This document shows, in pieces, positions 23,386-44,055 of a DNA stretch of 44,055 nucleotides. The position numbers and the translations under genes are program-made. This stretch comes from Bacteroidaceae bacterium. Lineage in GTDB: Bacteria > Bacteroidota > Bacteroidia > Bacteroidales > Bacteroidaceae. The notes under the pieces were generated by a model. That model was not told the origin of the DNA, made no database searches, and was given only the letters and a program-made list of their open reading frames with translations. Numbering within the stretch: the stretch's first letter is position 1; every line of letters starts with the position of its first letter. The DNA is taken from the NCBI GenBank assembly GCA_017547205.1, contig JAFYQH010000070.1, forward strand, positions 1 to 44,055, read 5' to 3'.

Positions 23386-23460
23386 GGACGTTTAGCTCAG
23401 CTGGTTTAGAGCATCTGCCTTACAAGCAGAGGGTCGGCGGTTCGAATCCGTCAACGTCCA
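23386..23460 (+). tRNA. tRNA-Val (anticodon UAC), copy 1
   Basis: A 75-nt cloverleaf. Acceptor stem GGACGTT pairs with AACGTCC; the D-arm is GCTC/GAGC; the anticodon stem TCTGC/GCAGA encloses the loop CTTACAA with anticodon TAC (reads GUA and other valine codons); the T-arm has TTCGAAT. No CCA is encoded (only a discriminator A). Confidence 0.96.
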
Positions 23461-23477
23461 CGAAATAATGACTTATT

Positions 23478-23552
23478 GGACGTTTAGCTCAGCTGGTTTA
23501 GAGCATCTGCCTTACAAGCAGAGGGTCGGCGGTTCGAATCCGTCAACGTCCA
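23478..23552 (+). tRNA. tRNA-Val (anticodon UAC), copy 2
   Basis: Identical in sequence to copy 1 and 92 bp downstream of it. The identity extends a few bases into the flanks (GACTTATT before, CGA after). There is no promoter between the copies, so both probably come from one transcript that ends at the terminator at 23562-23587. Confidence 0.96.
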
Positions 23553-23561
23553 CGATGCTTG

Positions 23562-34543: not shown

Positions 34544-35320
34544 TCAATAGGATGCCGATGCCTTTATGCCTGAACTATGTAGCAGTGATACAATCCTGTC
34601 AAGCTCCTCCTTTGTTGCTTTCTGCAATCCCGCATGTGGTGTTTCGCGGTCTATTGTGTAAATCATCACTTCTCGTGGTGCTATTTCCCTTATGATTTCA
34701 AGCCAGGGTATTACGTACTTGTCACCGGTATTGTCCACGTTTCTGCCGTTTACGGAACCTTTCATGAACATGGTCTGTATTACGGCCGTTCCGTTGAATG
34801 CCTTCATGCGCTCAACTATGGATGCAAGGTCGTAACTACCTGTAGGGCGGTCGACGGACATGATATAGTCTGTGTCAACAGTGTCAAGCTTTAAAATATT
34901 ATTGTCAACTTTCGACAAGGCATTGAATACTTTTTCTCTTGTTATGAGTGTTGCATTTGTGAGAACGCTTACCTTTGCCCCCGGGCAATATTTGTTGCGC
35001 AGGATAATGGTATCATCTATGATTTCTCCGAATTGAGGATGAATGGTGGGCTCGCCGTTTCCTGCAAAAGTAAGCACGTCGGGCAACTGGCCCTCTCTTG
35101 ACATTTCAATCAGTTTGTTCTCCAATGCTGTCGAGACCTCTTTCCGTGACGGCAATGGTGTGGTTGTTCTTTTTTCGGCATTGAACCCGCATTCGCAGTA
35201 CAGGCAGTCGAATGTGCATATCTTGCCGTCGGGAGGAAGCAGGTTTATACCGAGTGAAATGCCGAGCCTGCGGCTTTTTACAGGGCCGAATATGGGTGAT
35301 GGATAGATTATTGTCGGCAT
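34544..35320 (-). CDS. Radical SAM protein
   Basis: A 258-residue radical SAM enzyme, with the iron-sulfur cluster motif CTFDCLYC (CxxxCxxC) near residue 33-40 and the GNGEPT motif near residue 80-85 that binds SAM. The head, IIYPSPIFGPVKSRRLGISLGINLLP, marks a family widespread in bacteria with no agreed substrate. The start is ATG 35320; a longer reading from 35449 adds 43 residues that look unlike the family. A promoter box at 35415-35422 supports a leader of about 90 nt. Confidence 0.85.
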   Translation of the reverse strand: MPTIIYPSPIFGPVKSRRLGISLGINLLPPDGKICTFDCLYCECGFNAEKRTTTPLPSRKEVSTALENKLIEMSREGQLPDVLTFAGNGEPTIHPQFGEIIDDTIILRNKYCPGAKVSVLTNATLITREKVFNALSKVDNNILKLDTVDTDYIMSVDRPTGSYDLASIVERMKAFNGTAVIQTMFMKGSVNGRNVDNTGDKYVIPWLEIIREIAPREVMIYTIDRETPHAGLQKATKEELDRIVSLLHSSGIKASASY

Positions 35321-35414
35321 GGTGTTACTGTATTGAAAAGATTGTGCAGGCAGGTGAAACCCGTAGCTGGAATCGGAAGTATTCCCGGGGGTGGCCTGTT
35401 TCTGCGGTTTGCAA

Positions 35415-35446
35415 CAAAGATAAAGATAAATATCATACGAATCCAA
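35415..35446 (-). promoter_or_regulatory. Promoter of the radical SAM gene
   Basis: On the minus strand TATCTTTG (35422-35415) is an exact -7 box. About 20 bp upstream is TTGG (35446-35443), a weak -33. Confidence 0.55.
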
Positions 35447-35563
35447 CATGGCAACCGTATATTCTGTTCTTAAATCAAGTGTTTTTATCGAAAAGTGGTA
35501 GAAATCCCATTATTTTATTGACTATTATTTTATATGAATAAGTGTGGATAAGAATATTTTTTG

Positions 35564-35595: not shown

Positions 35596-36612
35596 ATGGA
35601 ATATTACATAGAGATAGATAATGTAAACAAAGCGAAGAATGACATTGATGAAATCTGTCGCCTTCAAGGTTATTGCAATCTTACAAAACGCAAGTTCGGG
35701 AGCGGTGGTGTAGGGCGTTTCCTTACAAAGGTCGTGAGTGTGGGGAAAATTCTCCTCAAGCTGCAGAAGGATGATGTTCTGATATTGCAGTATCCTATGA
35801 AGAAGTTCTACAAGACCGCGTGTAGGCTAGCTCGTTTTAAAGGTGCGAGGGTGGTAACCATAATACATGACCTTGGAGCTTTCCGTCGCAAGAAACTCAC
35901 TCCGATTCAGGAAAACAAACGTCTTTCACTTACTGATTTTCTCATTGTTCATAATCAGACCATGCGTGAGCATCTTCGTGAGCATGGCTTCAATGGCGGA
36001 ATTCATAATCTTGAAATTTTCGACTATCTTTCTGTAGAGCCTGTACAGCCATTACGCAAGCCTCATATGCCATGGAGGGTCGTGTATGCAGGGCACTTGG
36101 GGCATTGGCGCAATGAATTCCTTTATAAGATCGGTAGTTGTTCCGCGGAATGGGAGATGGAACTCTATGGAAAAGGATTCGAGGAAGAGAAGAACTGCTG
36201 CAAGCGGTTGCGTTACCACGGATTCATGCCTTCAGATGAGTTCATAGCCAAGGTCGATGGCGACTTCGGCCTTGTGTGGGATGGCGATTCTCTCGATGAG
36301 TGTACTGGTGCATGGGGAGAGTACCTTAAAATAAATAATCCTCACAAGACATCGTTCTACATCCGTGCGGGAATCCCAGTAATAGTTTGGAGCAAGGCGG
36401 CTATGGCTCCTTTTGTAAAGGAGAATAATATTGGACTGGTTGTCGATTCAATAAGAGATATCGAGGCTTCATTGGCCGGAATCTCGGGAAATGATTATGC
36501 GAGAATGCGCGAATCGGTCTCTATTGTGGGTAGGAGATTGTCCGAAGGCTTTTATTTCAAGTCGGGGCTCGAAAGCGCGATGGAGTATCTTGATAAGGAA
36601 AGGCAAGCATGA
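35596..36612 (+). CDS. Glycosyltransferase, galactofuranosyltransferase-like (Gtf3/GT4-type fold)
   Basis: First gene of the surface-glycan operon. The 338-residue protein has two Rossmann-like halves. The N-half shows GYCNLTKRKFG, DDVLILQYPMKKFYK and VVTIIHDLGAFRRKK. The C-half has MPWRVVYAGHLGHW, then GDFGLVWDGDS and NNPHKTSFYIRAGIPVIVWSKAAMAPFV, which matches the acceptor/donor-binding part of beta-1,6-galactofuranosyltransferase-like enzymes in capsule clusters. The sugar donor cannot be read from sequence. The stop codon (TGA, 36610-36612) overlaps the ATG of a 40-codon ORF (36609). Confidence 0.8.
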   Translation: MEYYIEIDNVNKAKNDIDEICRLQGYCNLTKRKFGSGGVGRFLTKVVSVGKILLKLQKDDVLILQYPMKKFYKTACRLARFKGARVVTIIHDLGAFRRKKLTPIQENKRLSLTDFLIVHNQTMREHLREHGFNGGIHNLEIFDYLSVEPVQPLRKPHMPWRVVYAGHLGHWRNEFLYKIGSCSAEWEMELYGKGFEEEKNCCKRLRYHGFMPSDEFIAKVDGDFGLVWDGDSLDECTGAWGEYLKINNPHKTSFYIRAGIPVIVWSKAAMAPFVKENNIGLVVDSIRDIEASLAGISGNDYARMRESVSIVGRRLSEGFYFKSGLESAMEYLDKERQA

Positions 36613-36731
36613 GCAGCATCCCGTTATATGGGTCCTTGGCTGATTCGCCCAAACACGGAAATTGCTCAAGGAAATGCAGATCCTGTATAAATGCTTGTCT
36701 TCGTGCTGATATTGCTTTTGCGTTGTGGTAA
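36609..36731 (+). CDS. Small cysteine-rich ORF (40 codons) between two glycosyltransferase genes
   Basis: ATG at 36609 overlaps the upstream gene's TGA by 4 nt (ATGA), and its TAA stop (36729-36731) directly precedes the ATG at 36732 of the following glycosyltransferase frame. The peptide contains four cysteines spaced C-x3-C-x2-C-x3-C (CSRKCRSCINAC at residues 19-30). The cluster looks like a metal or iron-sulfur site. No family is recognised. It would fill the otherwise unexplained 155 bp between the two glycosyltransferases. It is too short for a statistical call, so treat it as tentative. Confidence 0.4.
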   Translation: MSSIPLYGSLADSPKHGNCSRKCRSCINACLRADIAFALW

Positions 36732-36767
36732 ATGTTTCATATAAATAAGAGGTATAGTGCTTGGGTT

Positions 36768-37598
36768 ATGAGAAAATTCACTATAGGGGTCATAATTTCT
36801 ACATACAATAATCCGCGGTGGCTCGAGAAGACATTGTGGAGCTATGAGGTGCAGTCTGTCGTGCCCGATGAGATAATAATTGCCGATGATGGCTCAGGCA
36901 GAGAGACCCGTGAACTTATAGAACGTTTCAGCAAGACCTTGCCTATAAAGCATGTGTGGCACGAGGACGACGGTTTTCGCAAGACTAAGATTCTTAATGA
37001 AGCCTTGCGTGTAGCAATTTCCGATTATCTGATATTTACCGACCAGGATTGTGTGGCCCGCCACGATTTTGTTGAGACGCATATGCAATATGCTCGTCCC
37101 GGCTATATTTTGTCGGGCGGCTATTTCAAGTTGCCTATGGACATAAGTGAACTTATTACCCGTGAGGACATACGTTCCGCAAGGGCCTTCTCGCTCGAGT
37201 GGTTGACGGGAAATGGGCTGAAGAGAAACTTCAAGTGTACAAAACTTGTCAGGAACAGGGGGGTTGCAGTATTCATGAATTTTATTACGCCAACCAAGGC
37301 TACATGGAATGGCATGAACTCTAGTGGCTGGAGAAAGGACATTCTGGAGGTAGGAGGTTTTGATGAGCGTATGAAGTATGGTGGCGAAGATCGCGAGATG
37401 GGTGAGCGTATGTTCAACAATGGTATCCACTCAAAGCAGATACGCTATTCGGCGATAACACTTCATCTTGACCATAAGCGTCCTTATGTGAATGCTGAGG
37501 CTCTTGAACTCAACAGAAGGATACGTCAAGAGACAAAGCGTTTGCGTAGGACTGTTACAGAATATGGTTTGAACCTGAAAGAGGGTGATTCTGTGTAA
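36768..37598 (+). CDS. Family 2 glycosyltransferase
   Basis: GT-A fold enzyme with IGVIISTYNNPRWLEKTLWS at the N-terminus, the donor-binding IIADDGSG, the metal-binding region TDQDCV (DxD-like) and a C-terminal galactosyltransferase-type segment (GWRKDILEVGGFDERMKYGGEDREMGERM). Substrate unknown. I start at ATG 36768 (MRKFTIGV), where the domain begins; the longer start at 36732 gives 12 more residues and would abut the stop of the 40-codon ORF, which is also possible. It is followed after 51 bp by a LicD gene. Confidence 0.85.
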   Translation: MRKFTIGVIISTYNNPRWLEKTLWSYEVQSVVPDEIIIADDGSGRETRELIERFSKTLPIKHVWHEDDGFRKTKILNEALRVAISDYLIFTDQDCVARHDFVETHMQYARPGYILSGGYFKLPMDISELITREDIRSARAFSLEWLTGNGLKRNFKCTKLVRNRGVAVFMNFITPTKATWNGMNSSGWRKDILEVGGFDERMKYGGEDREMGERMFNNGIHSKQIRYSAITLHLDHKRPYVNAEALELNRRIRQETKRLRRTVTEYGLNLKEGDSV

Positions 37599-37649
37599 TG
37601 TTGTATTTATTGATACGACATCTGTCAATGATGTCATAAAAGACTGATT

Positions 37650-38582
37650 ATGGGATTAAATTTGAGTGAGGAGGTACGCTGTGGGCATATTGTAACCGCA
37701 GAGATGAAAAAGATTTGGTCTGTGGAGCTGGATCTTCTCGATAAGTTCCTGTCATATTGTAGATTGCATGGCTTGAGATGTTGGGTTGAGGGCGGTACGT
37801 TACTTGGGGCCGTGAGGCACAAGGGGTTCATTCCTTGGGATGATGATGTCGATCTTGCTATGCCACGCGAGGATTATGACCGGATGTGCAGGATTGGAAA
37901 CGAGGGGTTGGAGCATCCCTATTTCCTGCAAACCGCGTACAGTGATGTGGAGTACCATCGTGGTCATGCCCAGTTCCGTCGTAGCGATACAACCGGAATA
38001 CGTCCTTCAGATTCTTATGAGAAATTCAATCAAGGGATTTTTATAGATATTTTTCCGCTTGATGCAGTGCCCGATGACCGAAAACTTGTACATGAGTATC
38101 GTAGGCGTTGTGTAAAGGTGTTCCGTTTCCTCAAGTCGAAGAACTGCAACCTTCTTGTGTCGGGACGTGTGTCGCTGGTGTTCAGGAAGTTGAAGGCAAA
38201 ATATTGTGTGTGGCGTTATGGCTGGACTGATATTTATACCAAAGGGGAAGAGTATATGAGAAAATTGGGACGCATGCCTCATACAAAAGTCGCAGAATTG
38301 ACATCTTTGGGCGAAAAAATTGTTTGGGACAAGAAAATATTCGAAGAAACCGTATATTTGCCATTTGAGCATTTGATGGTTCCCGCTCCCAAGGATTATG
38401 ATGCGTTTCTACGGGAGAGCTTCGGACCGGATTACATGACACCGGTCAAGGCTCCGAGCATGCATGGCACGGTGGTATTCGATACTGAACGTAGCTATGT
38501 TGAGCTTCTGCCTAAGGTAAGGAAAGAGTACAGGAACTCTGCATTCAGGAGGCTTAAGGAAAAATTTTTAAAAAAGAAATAG
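37650..38582 (+). CDS. licD: LicD-family transferase, copy 1
   Basis: LicD proteins transfer phosphocholine, or in some lineages other cytidylyl-activated groups, to glycans. The signature [31 protein letters not shown] lies at about 48-78, including the DDD metal-binding motif, and the C-terminal half carries the family's [13 protein letters not shown] segment. No choline kinase or choline uptake gene lies near it in this window; the next genes instead make 2-aminoethylphosphonate. I therefore infer that it transfers phosphono-ethanolamine from CMP-AEP. 310 residues; three bases before the next gene. Confidence 0.88.
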
Positions 38583-38584
38583 GT

Positions 38585-39895
38585 ATGAGTAAGAAAGTTT
38601 ATCTCGGAATGATTGCTGATATAATGCATCCGGGTCTGACCAACATCATCAATGAAGGTGCAAAGTACGGCGATGTCGTCATAGGATTGTTTACCGACAA
38701 GGCAATAGCAACGCACAAGCGTCTGCCTTATCTCAGTTACGAGCAACGCAGAGAGGTACTCATGAACATTAAGGGAGTGAGTGATATTGTGCCGCAGGAT
38801 GAGTGGAGCTATGTCCCCAATCTCCTAAAGTATAAGCCCGACTATATCATTCATGGCGATGATTGGGTTCAGGGCCCCGACAAGTATATACGTGACGAGG
38901 TTTACAAGACAATGGAGAAACTTGGCGGTGAGGTTATTGAAATACCGTATACTCAAGGTATAACATCGTCAGGTCTGGCTAATGAGCTGGCGTCGTTGGG
39001 CACTACCCCCCAGGCGCGTCTCTCCTCTTTGCGCCGTCTAATATCGGCCAAGCCGGTTGTACGCATCCTTGAATCGCACAATGGTCTTACAGGCCTTATT
39101 GCAGAACATACAAGTGTGGATATTGATGGCCAGCATCGTGAGTTCGACGGCATGTGGTCCTCCTCACTTACCGATTCTACGAGCAAGGGCAAACCTGATA
39201 TTGAGGCTGTTGACCTTACAACTCGTCTGCACGACCTCAATGATACTCTTGAGGTTACTACCAAACCAATCATATTCGATGGTGACACAGGTGGCAAGGT
39301 CGAGCATTTCGGTTTCACAGTCCGCACTCTCGAGCGTCTTGGCATATCAGCTGTAATAATAGAAGATAAGGTCGGCCTGAAGCAGAACTCGCTTTTTGGT
39401 ACCGATGCTGTGCAGACACAGGATACAATCGAGGGATTCTGTATAAAAATTAAGGCTGGTAAGGCTGCGCAGATAACACGTGATTTCATGATAATTTCAC
39501 GTTGTGAGTCTCTTATTGCAGGTAAGCCCGTAGATGACGCCCTTGAGCGTTGCCATGCCTATGTCGAGGCTGGAGCCGATGGAATCATGATCCACTCAAA
39601 GGATAAGAGCGGTGAGGATGTAAAGGAGTTCTGCAAGCGTTTCAGGGAGAAGGATGCGCATACACCTATCGTAGCTGTTCCTACCACATACAACCAGTTT
39701 ACCGAGGAAGAGCTTGCGGAGTGGGGCATAAACATTGTAATCTATGCGAACCACATGCTGCGTGCAGCTTATCCGGCCATGGTCAAGTGTGCCGAGACGA
39801 TACTCACGCACAGCAGAAGCCTTGAGGCCGCAGAGCAATACTGCATGCCCATCAAGCAGATATTGAATCTTATACCAGGAACTAAGAATAAGTAA
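38585..39895 (+). CDS. aepX: Phosphoenolpyruvate phosphomutase with N-terminal nucleotidyltransferase domain
   Basis: PEP mutase makes phosphonopyruvate, the entry reaction for nearly all C-P bonds. The core (about 145-436) has the signature EDKVGLKQNS (Glu260 onward, consensus EDKxxxKxNS), plus the GDTGG loop. Residues 1-140 are a TagD/GCT-like nucleotidyltransferase domain (MIADIMHPGL, VVIGLFTDKAIA, DYIIHGDDW). Its HxGH motif, however, reads HPGL at residues 15-18 and the ISxTx motif reads ITSSG, so this domain is likely inactive. Fusions of this order are known in Bacteroides and other glycan clusters. It lies 2 bp from aepY. Confidence 0.92.
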   Translation: MSKKVYLGMIADIMHPGLTNIINEGAKYGDVVIGLFTDKAIATHKRLPYLSYEQRREVLMNIKGVSDIVPQDEWSYVPNLLKYKPDYIIHGDDWVQGPDKYIRDEVYKTMEKLGGEVIEIPYTQGITSSGLANELASLGTTPQARLSSLRRLISAKPVVRILESHNGLTGLIAEHTSVDIDGQHREFDGMWSSSLTDSTSKGKPDIEAVDLTTRLHDLNDTLEVTTKPIIFDGDTGGKVEHFGFTVRTLERLGISAVIIEDKVGLKQNSLFGTDAVQTQDTIEGFCIKIKAGKAAQITRDFMIISRCESLIAGKPVDDALERCHAYVEAGADGIMIHSKDKSGEDVKEFCKRFREKDAHTPIVAVPTTYNQFTEEELAEWGINIVIYANHMLRAAYPAMVKCAETILTHSRSLEAAEQYCMPIKQILNLIPGTKNK

Positions 39896-39897
39896 CC

Positions 39898-41025
39898 ATG
39901 ATAAGTCCGAAGTTTTTCGTCGACAAGCTGGGTGAGCTTGGAATTGACTTTTTTGCAGGTGTTCCCGACAGCCTCCTGAAGAATATCTGCGCATACATCT
40001 CTGACAATATGGATGAGCAGCACAATATCATTGCTGCTAATGAGGGTGGTGCTGTCGGTCTTGCAGCAGGATATCATCTTGCGACTGGTCGTGTCGGTTG
40101 TGTGTATATGCAGAACTCAGGTGAAGGAAATGTGATAAATCCGCTTGCTTCGTTGACCGACAAGGAGGTCTATAATATTCCTGTGTTGTTGCTAATAGGT
40201 TGGCGAGGCCGTCCGGGTGCGCATGATGAACCGCAACATGTAAAGCAGGGGAAGATAACGACAGGTCTGTTGAATACGATGGGCATTAATTACGATGTTC
40301 TCAGCAAGGATGAGGAGATGGCTGCAAAACAGATTGAAAAGGCTGTCGAAATCATGAACAGGACCAATGAGGTGTATGCACTGGTCGTTGAAAAGGATAC
40401 ATTCGAAACGCATGTGTTGCAGAACGTGGAGAAGAATGATCTTGTCATGTCCCGCGAAGAGGCTATAGCAGCTGTCGCTTCAGCGATGGACGCATGTGAT
40501 GCTGCAGTAGGTACAACTGGTATGATAAGCCGTGAATTGTTCGAGTATCGTGAAAGAGCCGGTGAGGGGCATGAACGCGATTTTCTTACAGTTGGAGCAA
40601 TGGGCCACGCCTCGCAGATTGCACTGGGTATAGCCATGATGAAGCCAGAGCGCAGGGTGTGGTGCTTTGATGGTGACGGTGCGAGCATAATGCATATGGG
40701 CTCTATGGCTATTGTTTCTAGCAAGTGTCCGGTAAACTATGTACATGTGATATTCAATAACGGGGCACACGATTCTGTAGGTGGTCAGCCGACCGTAGGC
40801 CTCAGGATTGACTTTCCGGCTGTTGCAAAGGCTGTCGGCTACAAGTATGCCTTGAGTGTCGATGACCGGGCCGGGCTTGATGAGGCTCTTTCTTCAATCA
40901 ATGGCATGGAAGGCCCTGTATTGCTTGAGGTTAAGGTCAAGAAGGGTAATAGAAAAGACCTTGGAAGGCCAACGACTACTCCAATGCAGAATAAGGAAGC
41001 ATTGATGGAATTTCTTAAAAAGTAA
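39898..41025 (+). CDS. aepY: Phosphonopyruvate decarboxylase
   Basis: TPP-dependent enzyme that makes phosphonoacetaldehyde from phosphonopyruvate, pulling the unfavourable PEP mutase step forward. A TPP-binding pyrimidine-site region with NEGGAVGLAAGYHLATG, and the diphosphate-binding motif GDGASIMHMGS...FNNG, are clear. The 375-residue length is typical of Ppd (single polypeptide). It lies 2 bp after aepX and 6 bp before the transaminase gene. Confidence 0.93.
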   Translation: MISPKFFVDKLGELGIDFFAGVPDSLLKNICAYISDNMDEQHNIIAANEGGAVGLAAGYHLATGRVGCVYMQNSGEGNVINPLASLTDKEVYNIPVLLLIGWRGRPGAHDEPQHVKQGKITTGLLNTMGINYDVLSKDEEMAAKQIEKAVEIMNRTNEVYALVVEKDTFETHVLQNVEKNDLVMSREEAIAAVASAMDACDAAVGTTGMISRELFEYRERAGEGHERDFLTVGAMGHASQIALGIAMMKPERRVWCFDGDGASIMHMGSMAIVSSKCPVNYVHVIFNNGAHDSVGGQPTVGLRIDFPAVAKAVGYKYALSVDDRAGLDEALSSINGMEGPVLLEVKVKKGNRKDLGRPTTTPMQNKEALMEFLKK

Positions 41026-41031
41026 CTTGTT

Positions 41032-42156
41032 ATGGATATAAAAAGAAATGTTCTCTTGAACCCGGGTCCGGCAACTACTACAGATACCGTAAAGCTGGCC
41101 CAGATTGTTCCCGACATTTGTCCTCGCGAGAAGGAATTCGCAGGTCTGATGAAGGCTCTGCGTTCCGATTTGCTGAAGCTTGTGCATGCCCCCGAGGATG
41201 AATATACTTCGGTGCTCTTCTGCGGTTCAGGGACTATAAATATTGATGTTTGTATAAATTCTCTTCTTCCCGAGGGAAAGAAAATCCTTGTCGTAAATAA
41301 TGGCGCCTACAATTCACGTGCAGTAGAGGTGTGCGAGATGTATCATCTGCCCCATATAAATCTGAAATTCAGTGTATATGAGCGTCCCAACCTCAATGTA
41401 ATAAGGGAAACCCTGGAGGCCAATCCCGATGTGGCTGTGGTGTACTGCTGCCATCACGAAACGGGTACCGGTATCCTTAACCCAATAAGGGAAATAGGTG
41501 CTATGGCGCATGAGCATGGAGCGATATTTGTGAGTGATACGACATCTACTTTGGGTATGATACCTTTGAATGTCGTGGATGACAACGTTGACTTCTGTAT
41601 GGCTTCGGCACAGAAGGGTCTCATGGCTATGTCCGGCCTTTCATTCATAATAGGAAGAACCGATATCATCAAGGCTTCAAAGAACTATCCTACACGCTCC
41701 TACTATTGCAACCTGTATCTGCAGTACGAGTACTTCGAGAAGACCGGTGAGATGCATTTTACACCCCCTGTACAGACGATATATGCGACAATCCAAGCCC
41801 TGAAGGAGTATTTCGAGGAGGGTGAGACTGCAAAGTTCGCACGTCATAGGGCGGTGTACGAGGCAATACATGAGGGCCTTGACAGGCTTGGGCTTGAGAC
41901 TGCCATTGACCGTGGAATAGAGTCGGGGCTTGTTGTTTCGGTCAAGTATCCCGATGACCCCAACTGGGATTTCGAAAAGGTACACGACTATTGTTATGAG
42001 AGGGGCTTTACAATTTATCCGGGTAAAATCAGCACTACCGATACATTTAGGCTCTGTTCACTCGGCAAGATATTCCCGGAGGATATTGAGGCTTTCTTCA
42101 TTGTGCTGGGTGAGGCGTTGAAGTATTATAACATAAGTACAGGAAAGAATGGTTAG
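41032..42156 (+). CDS. phnW: 2-aminoethylphosphonate-pyruvate transaminase type enzyme
   Basis: PLP-dependent class V aminotransferase that interconverts phosphonoacetaldehyde and 2-aminoethylphosphonate (AEP). It has the start NVLLNPGPATTTDTVK, CHHETGTGILNP, DTTSTLG and the PLP lysine in ASAQKGLM (Lys195). In this setting, next to the AEP-forming enzymes, it would run in the biosynthetic direction. The 374 residues are normal. Its 3' end overlaps the nucleotidyltransferase gene by 8 nt. Confidence 0.93.
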   Translation: MDIKRNVLLNPGPATTTDTVKLAQIVPDICPREKEFAGLMKALRSDLLKLVHAPEDEYTSVLFCGSGTINIDVCINSLLPEGKKILVVNNGAYNSRAVEVCEMYHLPHINLKFSVYERPNLNVIRETLEANPDVAVVYCCHHETGTGILNPIREIGAMAHEHGAIFVSDTTSTLGMIPLNVVDDNVDFCMASAQKGLMAMSGLSFIIGRTDIIKASKNYPTRSYYCNLYLQYEYFEKTGEMHFTPPVQTIYATIQALKEYFEEGETAKFARHRAVYEAIHEGLDRLGLETAIDRGIESGLVVSVKYPDDPNWDFEKVHDYCYERGFTIYPGKISTTDTFRLCSLGKIFPEDIEAFFIVLGEALKYYNISTGKNG

Positions 42157-42871
42157 GACGGCTGTAATAATGGCTGCCGGGCTAGGTACACGTTTCGGGA
42201 AAATGACCGAGACCCAGCCGAAAGGGTTCATAGAGGTTGGCGGTATGTCAATGATAAGGCGTTCGGTTGAGACGCTGCTGGCATGTGGTATAGAACGTAT
42301 AATAATAGGCACAGGTTATAAAAAGGAGTGCTATGAGGAACTTGCCGGGCAGTATCCACAGATTGAGTGTGTGTATTCGCCTCGTTATGCCGAGACCAAT
42401 AGCATGTATACTCTTTATAACTGTCGTGAGGCTATCGGTGACGACGATTTTCTGTTGCTGGAATCAGACATTGTTTTCAACAGCGCTGCAATTGCCGAGA
42501 TGTTGTCCGATGAGCATGATGACATAATGCTTATAACACCTGTCATAAAGTTCCAGGACCAGTATTATGTCATGCATGACGAGAAAGGTGTCCTGGTAGC
42601 CTGTTCTACTGACAAGAGCGCTTTGGATGCCCAGGGTGAACTTGTAGGCATACATCGTATCTCATCGTTGTTCTATAAGAAAATGTGTGGTGAATATGCA
42701 CGTGTAGTCGATGAGAAGCCTAAATTGGGATACGAATATATGCTTCTTGAGATGTCGCGTTTCCATGTGCCGGTTCATGTGCTGAATTCCAGGGTAGCCA
42801 AATGGTATGAAATTGATGACGAGGATGATCTGCGCTATGCCGAGGAGAATGTTGTAAAGTATCTTCAATGA
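42149..42871 (+). CDS. LicC/PntC-like cytidylyltransferase for phosphonate or choline-phosphate
   Basis: A 240-residue NTP transferase (GT-A-like Rossmann fold) with AAGLGTRFGKMTETQPKG at 9-26 (nucleotide-binding signature with the LxxxTxxxPK pattern), the metal-binding LLLESD (DxD-like) and the substrate-binding ETNSMYTLYNCREA. This family includes LicC (CTP:phosphocholine) and PntC (CTP:phosphonate) enzymes; the neighbouring AEP genes point to PntC-like CMP-AEP formation. It has an 8-nt overlap with the transaminase gene. In some bacteria PntC and the transaminase are fused, which agrees with the tight coupling here. Confidence 0.88.
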   Translation: MVRTAVIMAAGLGTRFGKMTETQPKGFIEVGGMSMIRRSVETLLACGIERIIIGTGYKKECYEELAGQYPQIECVYSPRYAETNSMYTLYNCREAIGDDDFLLLESDIVFNSAAIAEMLSDEHDDIMLITPVIKFQDQYYVMHDEKGVLVACSTDKSALDAQGELVGIHRISSLFYKKMCGEYARVVDEKPKLGYEYMLLEMSRFHVPVHVLNSRVAKWYEIDDEDDLRYAEENVVKYLQ

Positions 42872-42890
42872 TTCAACAAAAGCTTTGTTT

Positions 42891-43727
42891 ATGGCTGACA
42901 ATGATACAAAGGCGGGATATGATTTAAAACTCTTGCATTCCAGAATGCTTGACATTCTCTCGGCGATTGATGAGGTTTGCCGCAAGTATAATCTGCGCTA
43001 TTATCTCATTGCAGGGACGATGCTCGGTGCCGTGCGTCATAAGGGCTTTATTCCATGGGACGACGATGCCGACATCTGCATGCCGCATTCCGACTATGAC
43101 AAACTTATAGAACACTGCAAAGAGTGGCTGCCGGAAAGGTATGAGCTTATATGCGCCGAGAATGACAAGGATTACCCACAACCTTTTGCTAAGATTCAGG
43201 ATTCGTACACCACTATTATAGAACATGCGCATCTGAGGTATCTGGGCGGTGCATATATAGATGTCTTCCCTCTTGATGGTATGCCTGACGGCAGGATGGC
43301 GCAACGTTGGCACTATTTCAAGTACAAGCATTTGTGTAAGCTGCTCTATTTTACATATAGGGATCCGTATAGGCATGGTCGTGGGCCAAGTTCATGGTTG
43401 CCGTTATTGTGCCGCAGGTTGTACACGGTGGATGGGTTGCAGAAAAAGATACGAAAGCTGTTGACAAAGTACGACTTCTACAAATGCAAGAAAGTACTTT
43501 GCTTTGACGACGGCTTGAGGAGTGTTGTTGACCGGGAAGTGTATGGTACTCCCAAACCCTACGTATTCGAGGATAGGGAATTAATGGGAGTTAATGACCA
43601 TGATACACTCCTTAGACATATGTATGGTGATTACATGGAACTTCCGCCGGTGGAGAGCCGGAGACAGCACAACTTCTATTATCTTGATTTGAATACTCCT
43701 TATCGTGAATATAAGGGCGATAAATGA
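42891..43727 (+). CDS. licD: LicD-family transferase, copy 2
   Basis: A second LicD protein, 278 residues, with the signature [26 protein letters not shown] and GAYIDVFPLDGMPDG. It shares the central motif with copy 1 but is otherwise divergent (weak similarity in the C-terminal half), so the two probably act on different acceptor sugars. I use ATG 42891; a TTG at 42885 is in frame but unlikely. It is the last gene of the operon, followed by a hairpin at 43765-43794. Confidence 0.87.
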   Translation: MADNDTKAGYDLKLLHSRMLDILSAIDEVCRKYNLRYYLIAGTMLGAVRHKGFIPWDDDADICMPHSDYDKLIEHCKEWLPERYELICAENDKDYPQPFAKIQDSYTTIIEHAHLRYLGGAYIDVFPLDGMPDGRMAQRWHYFKYKHLCKLLYFTYRDPYRHGRGPSSWLPLLCRRLYTVDGLQKKIRKLLTKYDFYKCKKVLCFDDGLRSVVDREVYGTPKPYVFEDRELMGVNDHDTLLRHMYGDYMELPPVESRRQHNFYYLDLNTPYREYKGDK

Positions 43728-43764: not shown

Positions 43765-43794
43765 CCCCTTGTCAGAATACACTCTGGCAGGGGG
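43765..43794 (+). terminator. Probable terminator of the phosphonate-glycan operon
   Basis: CCCCTTGTCAGA (43765-43776) pairs with TCTGGCAGGGGG (43783-43794) along all 12 positions, including two G-U wobbles, with a 6-nt loop. The T tract after it (CTTGTTCTA) is weak. It also lies just beyond the RNase H stop on the other strand. Confidence 0.6.
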
Positions 43795-43834: not shown

Positions 43835-44055
43835 CTATTTTCTTCCGAAGTCGGCCGGAATCTCGCCCCATTCATCTGTTTCCCATTTCAGGAGGGTCGT
43901 GGTATACCTGTTTTCCTTCAGCCATTTTTCGGCTCTTTCGATATACCCGAATAGCTCTTCGGTTCTGTTGTCGCGCGGCAACTTTGTTTTGCACTGCTTC
44001 TGTTTTACCCATAGAAGTGCATTTCGGCTGTCCGAGTATATCGGCAGGTCTATAC
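43835..44055 (-). CDS. rnhA: Ribonuclease H, C-terminal part (continues outside the window)
   Basis: The minus strand is open from the window edge to a TAG at 43835-43837 and encodes the last 72 residues of an RNase HI-type protein. The pieces IYSDSRNALLWVKQKQ (with the acidic Asp of the active site in SDS), ELFGYIERAEKWL and WETDEWGEIPADFGRK resemble the end of Bacteroidetes RNase H proteins. RNase H cleaves RNA in RNA:DNA hybrids. Only the C-terminus is visible; the family often carries a viroplasmin-like N-terminal domain, which cannot be checked here. Confidence 0.78.
   Translation of the reverse strand, partial: IDLPIYSDSRNALLWVKQKQCKTKLPRDNRTEELFGYIERAEKWLKENRYTTTLLKWETDEWGEIPADFGRK

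Follow-up and report, generated by a model that had tools for sequence, protein, structure and literature searches.

What does an operon make when its phosphoenolpyruvate (PEP) mutase carries a fused cytidylyltransferase-like domain and a separate cytidylyltransferase is encoded close by, and what is the fused domain still for? These questions are raised by positions 35596-43727 of contig JAFYQH010000070.1 of a Bacteroidaceae bacterium (GCA_017547205.1). The window analyzed was this whole contig of 44,055 nucleotides (nt), part of a 2.23 Mb assembly that is 83% complete. Judged from the sequence, the locus is probably an accessory operon that makes CMP-2-aminoethylphosphonate (CMP-AEP) and moves 2-aminoethylphosphonate (AEP) to a surface glycan, with an altered fused domain and an exchangeable donor-making module.

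The eight-gene operon of the original prediction was confirmed as a single run of plus-strand open reading frames, arranged head to tail and all open, with junctions of at most 8 nt from the PEP mutase to the PntC-like cytidylyltransferase. The genes, with the PEP mutase gene given as its two domains, are as follows.

35596..36612, plus strand: GTgalf, a PRK09814 galactofuranosyltransferase-like glycosyltransferase (NCBIfam NF007326, 250.9 bits, under the cut-off of 420)
36732..37598, plus strand: GT2, a family 2 glycosyltransferase (Pfam PF00535, 67.6 bits, above the cut-off)
37650..38582, plus strand: LicD1, a phosphotransferase and skeleton member (Pfam LicD, 156.9 bits; acidic DDD motif kept)
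38585..39004, plus strand: N-terminal cytidylyltransferase-like domain of the PEP mutase, residues 1-140 (PF01467, 42.2 bits; 5x3d)
39017..39895, plus strand: PEP mutase domain of the same gene, residues 145-436 (TIGR02320, 411.6 bits, cut-off 319.6)
39898..41025, plus strand: Ppd, phosphonopyruvate decarboxylase (TIGR03297, 502.5 bits, cut-off 312.5)
41032..42156, plus strand: AEPT, AEP aminotransferase (TIGR03301, 460.8 bits, cut-off 360.8)
42149..42871, plus strand: PntC-type CTP:AEP cytidylyltransferase (PDB 6pd1, E 1.4e-50; Glu105, Glu196)
42885..43727, plus strand: LicD2, a phosphotransferase exchanged with the donor module (Pfam LicD, 148.8 bits)

Gaps of 2 nt separate LicD1 from the PEP mutase (PepM) and PepM from Ppd, and a gap of 6 nt lies between Ppd and AEPT. 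AEPT and PntC overlap by 8 nt, and LicD2 follows after 13 nt with a TTG start (the first ATG is at 19 nt). For GTgalf no Pfam or NCBIfam cut-off was passed, the best fit being the PRK09814 models. In the whole genome, as far as this assembly covers it, one PEP mutase and two LicDs were found above cut-off, all in the operon.

The PEP mutase, Ppd and AEPT each exceeded curated NCBIfam cut-offs. The best PDB match of the cytidylyltransferase was Tde1415 (PntC-AEPT, 6pd1), compared with E 3.2e-14 for LicC (1jyk). Tde-PntC and Spn-LicC differ by Glu versus Asp at both AEP-contacting positions (PMC6697681); aligned to the Treponema PntC, the window protein has Glu at both (E105 and E196). At the position of Tde-PntC E104, Glu was found in 57/57 PntCs and Asp in all 13 LicC-like proteins of an alternative module described below, which provides a simple annotation rule for separating PntC from the LicC-like enzymes of these clusters. 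The predicted synthesis of AEP and CMP-AEP was thus supported by curated families, the PntC-type residue and tight gene coupling, and the operon is a member of a published pathway type, CMP-AEP synthesis by PntC being the Pnt pathway (Rice et al. 2019, PMC6697681). By family membership, the PEP mutase would form phosphonopyruvate, Ppd would convert it to phosphonoacetaldehyde and the transaminase would yield AEP. The stand-alone PntC, by its family and specificity residues, would then make CMP-AEP, and LicD2, possibly with LicD1, would transfer AEP to a sugar assembled by the two glycosyltransferases. The absence of choline genes had also been noted, and none were recognized in the operon; the best match to the choline kinase LicA in this 83% complete genome (25.9 bits, cut-off 29) lay on another contig.

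Sibling comparison showed that the putative donor-making module is exchangeable under a shared sugar-building skeleton. In three genomes of the same genus (G016, G017 and G024) the window's skeleton occurs with a HisC/CobD-like pyridoxal phosphate (PLP) enzyme and a LicC-like gene in place of the AEP genes. Compared with these HisC-type siblings, the identities were 63-66% for GTgalf (3/3), 77-79% for GT2 (2/3) and 72% for LicD1 (2/3). In the AEP siblings they were 65% for GTgalf (G012), 77-79% for GT2 (both) and 78% for LicD1 (G012), and GTgalf and LicD1 were not found in the operon of G021. LicD2, on the other hand, splits by module, with 80-89% in the two AEP siblings versus 61-62% in the three non-AEP siblings. 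The operons of G012 (AEP) and G016 (HisC type) have both flanks in common, where proteins match at up to 91% (left) and 93% (right), so one module has taken the place of the other at a single chromosomal site. In such an exchange, PepM-Ppd-AEPT-PntC-LicD2 gives way to the HisC/CobD-like enzyme, the LicC-like cytidylyltransferase and another LicD2, while GTgalf, GT2 and LicD1 stay.

Among 399 family genomes, 108 have LicD2-type proteins (E up to 1e-55), at 133 places in all. No PEP mutase was found in 64 of these 108, and 28 of the places (in 24 genomes) lay within 10 kb of a PEP mutase. Twelve high-scoring places without PEP mutase, a non-random sample, were fetched, and 11 had a HisC/CobD-like gene and a LicC-like cytidylyltransferase adjoining LicD2 or within about 2 kb. 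Locus L185 carries both modules, with LicD1 next to PepM, and L178 has HisC-like and LicC-like genes, LicD1 and PepM, its contig ending inside Ppd. The module labels interleave in a quick tree built from 33 rows of LicD2 type, some of which are second copies without a module immediately next to them, and its starred branches force at least five changes of the AEP label.

The product of the alternative module was approached through its genes. One LicC-like enzyme was run against PDB and was closest to LicC. The HisC-like genes fell below both cut-offs in 10/10 proteins (hisC, 197-221 of 276.6 bits; CobD, 110-131 of 290.6 bits), and a histidine-pathway role was rejected because all three HisC-type siblings have another hisC above cut-off. 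Phosphocholine was likewise rejected as the sibling donor, the neighbor of the LicC-like gene being a PLP enzyme and not a kinase (4/4 by Pfam). Our best guess is that the module makes a phospho-amine such as phosphoethanolamine, with aminopropanol phosphate and serinol phosphate as further candidates. Phosphate esters are less stable than C-P bonds, and congeners that differ in donor module at one site constitute a natural experiment on the use of phosphonate versus phosphate ester.

Both LicD proteins exceed the Pfam LicD cut-off of 22.6 bits and keep the acidic motif. A comparison of the pair by structure prediction had been proposed in the original prediction; the model of LicD2 (pLDDT 89) resembles FKRP, with 6l7u as the best Foldseek match (E 2.4e-6), and every one of its 13 PDB matches with E of 0.001 or lower is an FKRP chain. 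The idea that LicD2 is AEP-specific came from a tree of PepM-linked LicDs, in which a clade of 20 rows held 16 AEP loci and 4 with PntC in which no transaminase was found; it was rejected because of the family-wide search, in which only 28/133 places were near a PEP mutase. LicD2 travels with the donor module and, by this gene distribution, is a better candidate for the AEP transferase than LicD1, which is a skeleton part occurring with either module and may use the same donor or another one.

The earlier suggestion that two LicDs mean two AEP positions or two glycans was unsupported as stated, since LicD1 occurs in 2/3 non-phosphonate sibling operons and is missing from the AEP sibling G021 (nor was it found in the HisC-type sibling G017). 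That both proteins use CMP-AEP, at two positions or on two glycans, is nevertheless a real possibility, somewhat short of probable. It is consistent with the acidic motif in both, with the 2 nt spacing of LicD1 and PepM, with LicD1 as the gene immediately preceding PepM in G012, G990 and G1052 as well, and with the LicD-family protein Mf1, which accepts CDP-choline and CDP-ethanolamine (PMC11982090). Besides the distribution of LicD1 among the siblings, it is opposed by the finding that just 6/55 loci with PntC and AEPT have at least two LicDs near PepM on the mutase's strand.

The original account of CMP-AEP stood, but it had missed both the donor-module exchange and the fused domain. Residues 12-116 of the PEP mutase gene form a CTP_transf_like domain (Pfam) that matches the Fom1 domain 5x3d at E 1.5e-41. 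Both histidines of the HxGH motif are catalytic in the cytidylyltransferase family. In the window HxGH reads HPGL and ISSTx reads ITSSG, so that neither sequence agrees with the Fom1-type motif. Among 81 altered single fusions, 79 have another residue in place of the second His of HxGH, and the ISSTx segment is variable, whereas D12, H15, G17, R46, R55, D92, D93 and W94 are each conserved in 80 or more; altered domains retain the first His, the Arg of KR and GDDW. Between the window and G021 or G012 the fused domain is 94% identical, with a non-synonymous difference (pN) of 0.036 or 0.040, compared with 0.027 or 0.037 for the mutase domain and 0.100 or 0.157 for PntC. The synonymous difference (pS) of the fused domain was 0.85 (G021) and 0.75 (G012), i.e. 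near saturation.

This pattern of conservation fits a fold and ligand site retained without catalysis, and the fused HPGL domain most likely no longer catalyzes CMP transfer. The unrelated PntC would hold that step, and the fused domain would persist for structure, docking or nucleotide binding. Going further, it can be tentatively proposed that the altered domain has been kept as a sensor that binds nucleotide, or as a docking part, and couples C-P bond formation to the supply of CTP or CMP-AEP, and that the surface head groups of these gut Bacteroidales evolve by whole donor-module swaps, phosphonate versus phosphate ester, under a constant sugar-building skeleton. The domain, conserved yet altered, poses a testable question as to the role of a fused cytidylyltransferase once another enzyme does its job.

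The state of the two motifs was compared with the presence of a neighboring nucleotidyltransferase. Of 169 PEP mutase loci collected, 126 remained at 98% identity and 124 of these have the fused domain; five with no nucleotidyltransferase found and less than 4 kb of downstream sequence were dropped, leaving 119. A nucleotidyltransferase was scored as found when it lay on the mutase's strand, up to 8 kb downstream or up to 7 kb upstream, by hidden Markov model or phmmer score, and a mutase frame of more than 600 codons was also scored as found. With both motifs intact (n=20), a PF12804-type nucleotidyltransferase was nearby in 4 loci and absent from 16; with one or both motifs lost (n=99), one was nearby in 93 and absent from 6. 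With the table restricted to the genome draws (76 loci, of which 3 were dropped), the corresponding counts were 4, 16, 48 and 5, with a Fisher p of 1.3e-8 when kinship is ignored. The 93 comprise 59 PntC-type genes, 16 of the DUF6564 type or similar, and 18 long frames, which were taken as N-terminal PF12804 fusions, Pfam having been run on one of them (L073). In these 18 frames ISSTx is lost throughout and both His of HxGH are kept in 17. All 16 intact loci without a nucleotidyltransferase adjoin an iron alcohol dehydrogenase-like gene (two Pfam-confirmed), which by analogy with Fom1 fits hydroxyethylphosphonate (HEP) activated by the fused domain. In the mutase-domain tree the starred branches force at least three changes of motif state. 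In independent pairs the nucleotidyltransferase goes the expected way in 2.8/3 on average (p 0.25), and because of this p value on three pairs the coupling of motif loss to a nucleotidyltransferase is suggestive, not proven.

The altered loci in which no nucleotidyltransferase was found are varied. In L104 and L116 no decarboxylase was found, and the next gene of L104 is ornithine-cyclodeaminase-like; in L182 and L193 no decarboxylase was found on the mutase's strand. In L211 a second CTP_transf_like domain lies at the C-terminus of the radical SAM-SPASM protein adjoining the PEP mutase (L211:7927-9390, minus strand). The remaining one, L088, has AEPT and a CDP-alcohol phosphotransferase.

It was also observed that L078, L111 and L149 represent a third type of PEP mutase cluster, in which PepM-Ppd occurs with a sugar epimerase-like gene and no AEP transaminase was found. 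These clusters contain DUF6564 or other NTP_transf_3-like genes, with a calcineurin-like phosphoesterase in L111 and L149 and a choline/ethanolamine-kinase-like gene in L149.

Several observations weigh against the reading of the operon and its fused domain given here. Besides the weak result on independent pairs, much of the motif and neighbor sample consists of close relatives, and in L088 no nucleotidyltransferase was found within 8 kb despite its AEP genes and altered domain. In L219-L222, one family (f142) elsewhere in the phylum, both motifs are intact and a PntC-like gene lies 7.7 kb off; that gene has the PntC-type Glu, and the fused domain has Thr for D92. Mean pairwise identity is lower in the domain than in the mutase among the 81 altered single fusions (0.75 vs 0.81) and clearly lower among the 18 triple fusions (0.76 vs 0.90). 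AlphaFold modeled the mutase poorly (pLDDT 64.5) and its result was not used, leaving the fused-domain claims to sequence. Position 196 is Glu in both cytidylyltransferase groups and does not separate them. Each operon version is known from only three genus genomes, and the LicD2 of G012 (L007 2623-3438, minus strand) has an in-frame TAG, from a pseudogene or an assembly error. Finally, the substrate proposed for the HisC-like/LicC-like module, like the product and acceptor glycan proposed for the window operon, is deduced from genes.

A still active cytidylyltransferase in the fused domain, with changed substrate or mechanism and with PntC serving a second step or substrate, would explain why most nucleotide-site positions are kept and why the domain is strongly conserved between siblings, and the two forms of the enzyme, fused and separate, do occur together in published clusters (PMC6697681). 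It is unlikely, given the replacement of the second His in nearly all altered single fusions, the variable ISSTx segment and the 16 of 20 intact domains with no other nucleotidyltransferase nearby.

Equally improbable is that the operon makes a phosphonolipid and not a phosphonoglycan. The LicD-family Mf1 acts on a glycolipid (PMC11982090), and a CDP-alcohol phosphotransferase occurs in 10/55 loci with PntC and AEPT, in 9 of which no LicD was found; the window operon, however, lacks such a gene and is headed by two glycosyltransferases, and Kdo-kinase-like and GT10 genes are present as well in the operons of G021 and G016. As a separate observation, L128, L133, L136, L137 and L140 contain PntC-like frames some 590 codons long, close to a CDP-alcohol phosphotransferase-like gene upstream of PepM; these frames are perhaps fused PntCs for phosphonolipid.

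A CMP-AEP glycan-decoration operon remains the preferred reading, and its setting was examined through the following neighboring features.

34544..35449, minus strand: radical-SAM gene, left edge of the insertion (Pfam Radical_SAM)
43765..43794, plus strand: terminator-like stem-loop after LicD2 (12 pairs, 7 G-C)
43835..44053, minus strand: C-terminal gene fragment running into the contig end, right edge of the insertion (flank homologs in siblings)

The right-edge fragment is without a Pfam match and is presumably RNase H-like. A promoter scan of the region gave nothing usable, and the stem after LicD2 is weak alone, the region having 8 terminator-like sites with 6.6 expected. Elsewhere in the window, tRNA-Val(tac) genes form a tandem pair at 23386-23461 and 23478-23553.

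By comparison of these edges the operon is an accessory insertion. The left-edge gene has a homolog in 44/44 genus genomes. In 11/28 sibling loci (L011-L038), including that of G012, a homolog of the right fragment stands beside the radical-SAM gene with no operon between them, while in the window and G021 the operon is lodged between these two genes; in the other 17 the flank fetched, of at most 1.5 kb, showed no right-fragment homolog. PEP mutase was found in 3/44 genus, 61/399 family, 18/393 order and 9/395 phylum genomes (each count includes the window's own genome, and the last three are draws), and for two of the nine in the phylum the match is confined to the mutase domain. Two ruminant-gut Bacteroidaceae metagenome-assembled genomes (MAGs) have the closest named PEP mutases (94-95%). 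Fibrobacter MAGs, together with a single Thermoguttaceae MAG, contain PEP mutases 85-88% identical, a sign of either cross-phylum transfer or binning error; Fibrobacter loci with PEP mutases 87-88% identical to the Bacteroidaceae one are among L078-L105. That the operon is a decayed or silent one without any product, as its rarity in the genus and the lost motif of the fused domain might imply, is very improbable with eight open frames and few protein changes at near-saturated synonymous sites.

In the literature searched, no account was found of a conserved fused domain losing its motif alongside a separate enzyme, nor of donor modules being exchanged on a shared skeleton; among the literature matches listed, the titles and abstract openings report neither a donor-module exchange nor a degenerate fused domain. 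The closest known system is the Pnt pathway (PMC6697681), which shares Ppm, Ppd, AEPT and PntC with LicD or glycosyltransferases nearby, as well as the AEP-contacting Glu. That paper already noted clusters with a fused and a separate nucleotidyltransferase, and the main portion of its Results reports neither motif loss in the fused domain beside the separate enzyme nor an exchange of donor modules. The AEP-bearing capsule of Bacteroides fragilis is likewise a Bacteroidales glycan with AEP (PMC6697681, PMC12413058); no capsule polymerase or flippase was recognized in the window operon. Fom1 of the fosfomycin pathway has the same two-domain architecture, a PEP mutase with an N-terminal HEP cytidylyltransferase, but reads HPGH and ISSTR where the window has HPGL and ITSSG, and the window has AEP genes and PntC instead of the HEP route. 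The Lic phosphocholine pathway (LicA, LicC, LicD) resembles these operons in that a CTP-activated head group is moved by LicD, with a LicC-like enzyme in the siblings. It differs in its donor branch: no choline kinase scored above cut-off here, the window has a putative phosphonate donor, and the siblings have a PLP enzyme.

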